A stretch of 47,832 bases of DNA from an uncultured Alphaproteobacteria bacterium (GTDB taxonomy: Bacteria; Pseudomonadota; Alphaproteobacteria; Rs-D84): positions 1 to 47,832 of the forward strand of contig CAMORN010000004.1 in assembly GCA_946623825.1 (NCBI GenBank). Direction: 5' to 3'. Positions 33,401 to 34,200 of this stretch are shown here, piece after piece (within the stretch, counting starts at the first letter, position 1; every line of letters starts with the position of its first letter). The notes beneath the pieces are model-generated. The model was not told the DNA's origin and did not search any database. It was given only the letters and a program-made list of their open reading frames with translations. The position numbers and the translations under genes are program-made.

Positions 33401-33952
33401 TTAAAATTGTGTGTTGAAACCGACACGAACAGATTTTGGGTTGGCTTCTACATTTACACCATTTGGTAAATATTTATCAACAAGTACCCATGTAAAAAAT
33501 GCTGATATTGCGGCACCTGCCACAACATCGTGCCAATAGTGTGCTTTTGCTCTTACACGAGAATACCCGACAAAAGCACTCATAACATAAGGTGTGATTG
33601 CGTATCTTATGCCATATCTTTTATGAACAAACATTGCAGCAGAAAAAGCTCCAACTGCATGTCCACTTGGAAAAGATTTTTTATCTTTTTTATTTGGGCG
33701 TCTTTCAAGATTAAATGCCTTTATCCCTTCACTTGCTATTTGTCCTGCAAGTACAGATTCACCAAGTTGAAGTGCGCCTTTGTAATCTTGGGCCATAATA
33801 GACAGACCAAGTGCGTATGCTGGTGCCATAACAAGCATCATATCACCAGCCTTTTCCCAATTAGAGAACGGACCACCAAAAGCATCAGCTTTATTTGTAT
33901 TTGATATAATTGCTAAACACACAATACTTGATATAAGTAATGTTTTTTTCAT
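33401..33952 (-). CDS. PAP2-family phosphatase, secreted or membrane-associated
   Basis: The 183-aa protein has an N-terminal signal or membrane segment (MKKTLLISSIVCLAIISNTN). All three PAP2 motifs are present: KAFNLERRP, SFPSGHAVGAFSAAM, and SRVRAKAHYWHDVVAG with the catalytic histidine. Family members remove phosphate from phosphatidate, undecaprenyl pyrophosphate or lipid-A-like substrates at the periplasmic face. The substrate here is not known. The protein is shorter and less hydrophobic than six-TM family members and ends in RVGFNTQF. GGAGAG lies about seven bases before the ATG. A structured RNA with a terminator lies directly upstream, so read-through of that element may control it. 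Confidence 0.88.
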   Translation of the reverse strand: MKKTLLISSIVCLAIISNTNKADAFGGPFSNWEKAGDMMLVMAPAYALGLSIMAQDYKGALQLGESVLAGQIASEGIKAFNLERRPNKKDKKSFPSGHAVGAFSAAMFVHKRYGIRYAITPYVMSAFVGYSRVRAKAHYWHDVVAGAAISAFFTWVLVDKYLPNGVNVEANPKSVRVGFNTQF

Positions 33953-33979: not shown

Positions 33980-34167
33980 AAAAAACACCACCAAATTTGA
34001 TTGGTGGTTGGAGGTTAGTTACTATAAAGTAGAATAGTGTGCTTATTTTACGACAATGTCGTATTATTCACAGCCCTCCAACCATGAAGATTGGAGGCCT
34101 TTTTCGTCTGCCACAGACGCTACTTTCAAGGGTAACTACACCCCAACAATATAATTCATATTGTCAG
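33980..34167 (-). ncRNA. Structured RNA or attenuator-type leader upstream of the PAP2 gene
   Basis: This minus-strand unit of about 188 nt starts just after a consensus promoter and ends in ACCACCAA/TTGGTGGT (33987-33994 and 34001-34008) plus T6. Its 5' part forms CAATAT/ATATTG. A 15-nt closing stem (34132-34146 with 34008-34022, two mismatches and one G-U) is extended by AAAGTAG/CTACTTT (34120-34126 with 34026-34032). This encloses three hairpins at 34105-34119, 34075-34097 and 34049-34063. GGTTGGAGG (complement at 34075-34083) can instead pair for nine bases with CCTCCAACC (34006-34014). That partner overlaps both the closing stem and the first bases of the terminator arm. It could be a free sRNA or a riboswitch/attenuator. 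The length resembles 6S RNA, but the multibranch shape does not. Confidence 0.6.
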
Positions 34168-34171
34168 CCCA

Positions 34172-34200
34172 ATTATAAATAAGGTTATAATTTAATGCAA
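34172..34200 (-). promoter_or_regulatory. Promoter of the structured RNA
   Basis: Minus strand: TTGCAT (34195-34200), exactly 17 nt, TATAAT (34172-34177). Predicted initiation is near 34165-34168. Confidence 0.75.

Follow-up and report, generated by a model that had tools for sequence, protein, structure and literature searches.

A probable C4/sRNA-Xcc1-type antisense-RNA leader with a transcription terminator upstream of a PAP2 phosphatase gene in an uncultured alphaproteobacterium

The window analyzed in this work is a 47,832-nt stretch of DNA from an uncultured alphaproteobacterium. On its minus strand, a promoter, a structured RNA of about 185 nt, an intrinsic terminator and the start of a PAP2 gene follow each other in this order. 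The promoter (34172-34200) consists of a -35 box TTGCAT (34195-34200) and a -10 box TATAAT (34172-34177) separated by a 17-nt spacer, and the position of the -10 box predicts a transcription start at about 34165. The putatively controlled gene (33401-33952) encodes a secreted PAP2-family phosphatase of 183 amino acids (Pfam PF01569, E 4e-16), with the ATG at 33952, 28 nt past the T-run of the terminator. The minus-strand fold of the region 34200-33980 has a free energy of -73.9 kcal/mol (z = -6.1), and 0 of 200 shuffled sequences were equally stable. The parts named in the original prediction, which was made from the DNA sequence alone, are present on this strand, among them the TTGCAT-17-TATAAT promoter, the structured RNA and the terminator ahead of the PAP2 gene.

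All elements of the RNA are given here from 5' to 3' on the minus strand. According to the folds, the transcript is predicted to begin with hairpin P0 (34145-34165), followed by hairpin P1a (34130-34144; stem GGGGT..ACCC, loop G TAGTT), whose loop pentamer TAGTT (34134-34138) is the a1 target segment. The second target segment, b1 (AAAGTAG, 34120-34126), is followed by hairpin P3 (GCGTC..GACG, 34105-34120), which is missing from some copies of the leader, and by the 5' arm of P4, CCTCCAATC (34089-34097), which competes for the 5' strand of a C4-type closing stem. This stem, GGTTGGAGG paired with CCTCCAACC and then followed by ACC (34003-34005), delimits a C4/sRNA-Xcc1-like domain (34003-34083). 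Within the domain, we distinguish hairpin P5 (34039-34071) with the conserved letters GYGAAUA and AAUAAGCRC, hairpin P6 (ACTAT..ATAGT, 34021-34038), whose loop CTACTTT (34026-34032) is the b' segment, and the linear a' segment AACTA (34016-34020), which is the complement of a1. The terminator (ACCACC..GGTGGT and a T-run, 33980-34008) shares three nucleotides with the closing stem, such that the final three of CCTCCAACC are the initial three of the terminator 5' arm.

Two kinds of alternative or long-range pairing characterize this leader. First, GGTTGGAGG (34075-34083) can pair either with CCTCCAATC in its own hairpin or, over nine bases, with CCTCCAACC (34006-34014). Second, two pairings connect upstream segments with the interior of the C4-like domain, namely TAGTT of the 5' hairpin loop with AACTA, and AAAGTAG with CTACTTT of the P6 loop. 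The bases that had been assigned to one long closing stem do pair, but as these two separate pairings, which can form pseudoknots instead of one simple stem. A mutual exclusion of P2 and P6 was considered and dropped; a 1-nt 5' linker and a 0-nt 3' linker would fit a kissing or H-type geometry.

A DNA search revealed five dispersed copies of the leader in this genome; further copies turned up in 24 of 59 relatives, each of them a member of the genus. Using a covariance model built from 40 copies (R1), we identified matches in 87 of 96 genomes of the genus and, across the order, in 17 of its 22 genera; in a sample of 398 genomes of the phylum the R1 matches were confined to the genus. The host order is a single alphaproteobacterial order, Candidatus Enterousia-like. 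The copy number ranges from 0 to 50 per genome of about 1 Mb, with 25 copies in the single-contig genome G104 and 50 in G073. All counts of leader anatomy given below are based on 137 distinct copies. An open reading frame with a Shine-Dalgarno sequence lies in the same direction 3' of the leader in 127 of them, at a median distance of 49 nt. Nearly each copy precedes a different gene, and most of the products are either small HTH proteins or proteins that are secreted or located at the surface; besides PAP2, the latter include short secreted proteins, cysteine-rich ones and one resembling an outer-membrane protein. A look upstream of PAP2 orthologues, as proposed along with the original prediction, showed that in other genera, too, these genes are preceded by a leader with this architecture, which keeps the layout but differs in its letters.

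Several gene families recur downstream of the leaders. The other copies in this genome (G000) and its nearest relative (G001) are found mostly before paralogous secreted proteins of about 400 amino acids (MSQKIFLTSALAMG..., loci L032-L038), the first 60 residues of which have no match in Pfam. A family of HTH proteins of 70-90 amino acids with a start like MxVDAKYFGxxMRxAR, possibly regulators or toxin-antitoxin parts, stands behind a short leader that lacks P3 (L071, L079, L082, L085, L086, L128, L144, L160-L162). Cysteine-rich secreted proteins are found behind a second class of leader, which has the closing stem GTCAGGAGG/CCTCCTGAC (L137-L141, L152, L155-L171); CAGGAG is found before the start codon in 73% of this class versus 2% of the main class. 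Sequestration of the Shine-Dalgarno sequence by CCTCCAACC was rejected as a mechanism, as only a class-linked trend was observed and a leader's own site was no better than same-class controls. The R1 element is also present on three IMG/VR contigs (L210:12039-12174, L211:8459-8589, L212:787-922), two of which (L210 and L211) encode, as judged by eye, EcoRI-methylase-like and phospholipase-D-like proteins. Phages or prophages may therefore carry the element; a DNA search of phage and plasmid collections gave no match.

The common order of elements in the leader is P0, P1a (a1), b1, optional P3, P4, P5, P6 (b'), a', the 3' element, terminator, Shine-Dalgarno sequence and open reading frame, and a TATAAT-like box occurs 30-34 nt 5' of the P1a hairpin in 81 of the 137 copies. 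The pentamer pairing of a1 with a' is perfect in 128 of 137 copies, as compared to about 8 of 137 with shuffled partners, and 34 different pentamers were already present in the first version of this test. Altogether, 97.5% of the a1/a' cells are paired, with changes on both sides at four of the five pairs. The longest b1/b' helix has a median length of 7 bp versus 4 bp in mismatched copies, and it reaches at least 6 bp in 91% of copies versus 16% of mismatched controls. In P6, 98% of cells are paired, and the middle pair is U-A in 27 of 40 copies and A-U in 13 of 40. The local P4 stem of at least 6 bp is present in 134 of 137 copies, and the closing stem formed by the P4 3' arm and the 3' element pairs at nine of nine positions in 130 of 137, with compensatory classes including GTCAGGAGG/CCTCCTGAC and GGTTGGAGT/ACTCCAACC. 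The nine-base alternative pairing noticed in the single sequence is thus real, and comparison of the copies showed compensatory change in a1/a', P6 and the closing stem.

Like C4 and sRNA-Xcc1, the closed RNA of the leader resembles a tRNA and has RCC at its end, a signal of the RNase P type. The domain starts with GGU, and RCC or RCT follows the closing stem in 91% of copies; a T at position -1 of the expected RNase P cut is found in only 63 of 137. A terminator is present in 132 of 137 copies, and in 127 of them its 5' arm overlaps the 3' element by 3-5 nt. With pseudoknots left out of the calculation, the terminator fold beats the closing-stem fold in 128 of 132 copies, the mean margin being 11.7 kcal/mol. 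In this model ‘off’ therefore looks like the default state, and the read-through state would need help.

The Rfam search suggested with the original prediction gave no match to 6S RNA, SRP RNA, tmRNA, RNase P RNA or a riboswitch at the gathering score for the window copy, and, for the window and ten loci, it returned no family for the R1 element. A T-box was also rejected, because inspection showed no conservation of the UGGN-like letters that lie near P4. With the sRNA-Xcc1 family (RF02221), the window copy gave no match up to E 10 and lies below the 53-bit gathering score. Relatives of this copy do match. The leader of a PAP2 orthologue (L190) scored 52.7 bits (E 5.5e-9; gathering cut-off 53), and four R1 copies in same-genus relatives scored 35-40 bits (E about 1e-5). 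Two matches of 39.7 and 35.2 bits fall on R1 copies in G099, and other R1 copies are overlapped by RF02221 at G019:C40:1500-1586 and G004:C11:49088-49161. One same-genus locus above the cut-off (L244 of G020) carries the upstream segments and a nine-letter b' complement just before an ATG. The statement in the original prediction that no conserved riboswitch, 6S, SRP, tmRNA or RNase P core is recognizable thus agrees with the Rfam result for the window copy. Because RF02221 matches relatives of this copy, however, the RNA is of a kind already known.

The likeness extends to the architecture. The RF02221 model spans only the 3' 87 nt, and its nine-base closing stem corresponds to the ‘alternative’ pairing of the window. 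R1 leaders have the closing stem around two hairpins and the exposed hairpin loop and linear segment that mark RF02221 members, and the target segments a1 and b1 lie upstream in the same leader. Across Pseudomonadota, RF02221 loci precede SymE, Bro-N, P22_AR_N, Rha and KilA-N genes. In thirty RF02221 loci elsewhere, upstream complements of a'/b' measured 8.6 bp versus 5.7 bp in mismatched controls, and complements near the ribosome-binding site 6.9 bp versus 5.2 bp in controls. In loci L213-L242, the 5' half (a1/b1) lies outside the Rfam model, often together with an intrinsic terminator ACCGC..GCGGTATTTTT, and b2-like complements occur at the ribosome-binding site of SymE, Bro-N, Rha and KilA-N genes.

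The letters of the pairing segments differ from copy to copy. Within a genome, the combined a and b letters are unique to each copy (22 of 22 in G104, 30 of 30 in G073), as in the locus-specific, heteroimmunity-like code of C4. When all a'/b' were compared with all a1/b1 in six genomes, no cross-match was observed between dispersed copies (0 of 462 in G104), and cross-matches occurred only between tandem copies before one gene. Since a random match is improbable anyway, the lack of cross-matches is weak evidence by itself, and therefore the argument is carried by the tandem and paralogue comparisons. Tandem copies have the a/b code in common while the remainder is only 63-95% alike; such leaders (L153, L076, L050, L145, L147, L150) precede a single gene with one pairing code, and up to four of them occur within 1 kb on contig 2 of G073. 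Among paralogues with a scaffold at least 90% identical, the code was shared in 0 of 31 cases within the same genome and in 7 of 26 between genomes (p = 0.0025, the pairs not being independent). In L155 and L156, for example, the scaffold and tail are identical, b1 and b' are different, and the pairing is kept. Unique codes, paralogues with differing codes and code sharing in tandem thus argue for antisense pairing between RNA molecules, as a diffusible antisense RNA would need a private code per copy and a purely cis-acting device would not.

In our view, the unit is probably an antisense-RNA leader of the C4/sRNA-Xcc1 type, through which expression of PAP2 is controlled by transcription attenuation. 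Its parts, and the complementarity conserved among them, are legible in the sequence, and from these we infer RNase P release, trans action and coupling to the terminator. The ‘riboswitch or attenuator’ proposed originally is well supported in its second half, because the analysis confirmed the competing pairings, the terminator and the coupling between them, and found all of these to be conserved. In contrast, a metabolite riboswitch is unsupported because the downstream genes are unrelated and the pairing code, unique per copy and shared in tandems, is one that ligand sensing would not need; no known class was matched. The further suggestion of a free regulatory RNA is probably right as well, given that the 3' domain is built like the C4-type RNAs that RNase P excises.

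An attenuator or riboswitch acting only in cis, in which a double pseudoknot of a1/b1 with a'/b' would sense a small molecule, an ion or a protein and P4 with the terminator would be opposed to the closing stem, is in our view unlikely. Every pairing can form in cis, the covariation is strong, and the lowest-energy fold of the window unit holds those pairings together with the terminator. The conserved unpaired letters of P5 could bind a ligand, and a leader common to many unrelated genes is reminiscent of second-messenger riboswitches; however, there is no common pathway among the downstream genes. Moreover, a cis sensor does not need unique codes, recoded near-identical paralogues or code-sharing tandems, and both the architecture and the RF02221 matches tie the leader to antisense RNAs. 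A family of free-standing sRNAs that act in trans on other mRNAs, and that lie beside genes by chance or through a shared promoter, appears improbable. The element has its own promoter and terminator, sRNA-Xcc1 was described as a stable sRNA of ~100 nt on Northern blots and mapped as an 88-nt RNA (PMC2996969), and many genomic C4-type sRNAs are known in Acinetobacter (PMC5320573), but an open reading frame with a Shine-Dalgarno sequence follows 127 of 137 copies in the same direction (median 49 nt), the strongest complement of a'/b' lies within the same leader, and the PAP2 leaders are kept in orthologues. Finally, a mobile or repeat element (REP-like or a cassette) with no regulatory role, to which the copy number of 0 to 50 among relatives and the three viral-collection contigs could point, is very hard to reconcile with the directional placement before open reading frames, the conserved terminator and promoter boxes, the strong compensatory change and the per-copy recoding.

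For the antisense-RNA leader that we favor, we propose the following mechanism. The promoter would start an RNA that carries the two targets first, a1 in a hairpin loop and then b1, followed by the compact domain with a 9-bp closing stem around two hairpins, the RCC end, and b' (loop) and a' (linear) exposed. The closing stem would compete upstream with P4 and downstream with the intrinsic terminator just before the gene. A predicted RNase P cut before GGTTGGAGG, with which the GGU start and RCC/RCT are consistent, would release a C4-like RNA of ~80-90 nt, and its a' and b' would pair with a1 and b1 of newly made leader RNAs from the same locus. By way of the 3-5 nt that closing stem and terminator have in common, this pairing in trans may set the choice between the closing stem (read-through) and the terminator (stop). 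By analogy with P1/P7 C4 and P4 CI, the result would most likely be negative feedback that keeps the gene low; positive feedback is possible. Within the genus, the unit would have been amplified in front of host genes, to a maximum of 50 copies that all differ in their a/b code.

On a broader scale, and with less assurance, we lean towards the view that a phage-immunity antisense RNA has been domesticated as a general platform, providing up to ~50 orthogonal self-addressed attenuators per ~1-Mb genome for the control of secreted proteins and small regulators, with selection driving new copies to new codes, and that the sRNA-Xcc1 family at large, with its SymE, Rha, Bro and KilA-N leaders in Pseudomonadota, is the same machine. 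This view joins C4 of phages P1 and P7, integron sRNA-Xcc1 and an unannotated multi-copy leader of abundant gut bacteria, which were previously separate, and it predicts that sRNA-Xcc1 would be one half of a self-targeting leader and not a general trans sRNA. A single genome may hold dozens of these candidate orthogonal antisense regulators, a natural set in which the code and its compensatory partners are legible in sequence. They could be used to understand how RNA specificity diverges after duplication and to build orthogonal RNA controllers.

One of the closest known systems is sRNA-Xcc1, which is found upstream of symE in Xanthomonas cassettes (PMC12444791). It resembles R1 in the closing stem, the two inner hairpins, the a' and b' segments in a loop and a linear segment, the upstream a1 and b1, and the gene downstream. 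In contrast to R1 copies, sRNA-Xcc1 members have complements at the ribosome-binding site, and by inspection many of them have a terminator before the RNA domain, whereas in R1 the terminator comes after it. R1 also has the extra P4 hairpin, which occupies a closing-stem strand.

In C4 of phages P1 and P7 (RF01695), RNase P cuts at the 5' end of the closing stem and the loops bind the target mRNA, with the specificity residing in the loop letters (PMC5320573). As in R1, the a1 and b1 segments, the RNA and the gene are parts of one transcript (the annotated order in P1 is a1, b1, C4, a2, b2, icd), the target segments are complementary to a hairpin loop and a linear segment of the closed RNA, and specificity per locus lies in the letters of that loop and linear segment (PMC5320573). 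The a2/b2 segments at the ribosome-binding site are a core feature of C4, while R1 has a terminator overlapping the closing stem instead: the a'/b' complement at the own ribosome-binding site of R1 copies measured 4.95 bp versus 4.85 bp in mismatched controls. C4 controls an antirepressor operon, whereas R1 precedes host genes and is far more numerous. When six genomes of the genus were searched with the C4 model RF01695, no match was obtained (the best E values were 4 and 7.6). R1 works like C4, yet it falls outside RF01695, with the window copy below the RF02221 threshold. Given no match to RF01695, no a2/b2, the terminator after the domain, the extra P4 and the host genes downstream, R1 is therefore a variant of a known RNA kind, outside RF01695.

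The CI RNA of phage P4 is processed by RNase P, shows complementarity to segments of its own leader both upstream and downstream, and causes premature termination. Its likeness to R1 is one of description, and the termination mechanism differs. In copy number, a parallel is provided by the Group 1 C4-like sRNAs of Acinetobacter baumannii, which are also many per genome, vary only in the specificity loop and carry GGW at the processed 5' end (PMC5320573). These are viewed as trans sRNAs from phage remnants, whereas the R1 elements are terminator-bearing leaders of diverse host genes.
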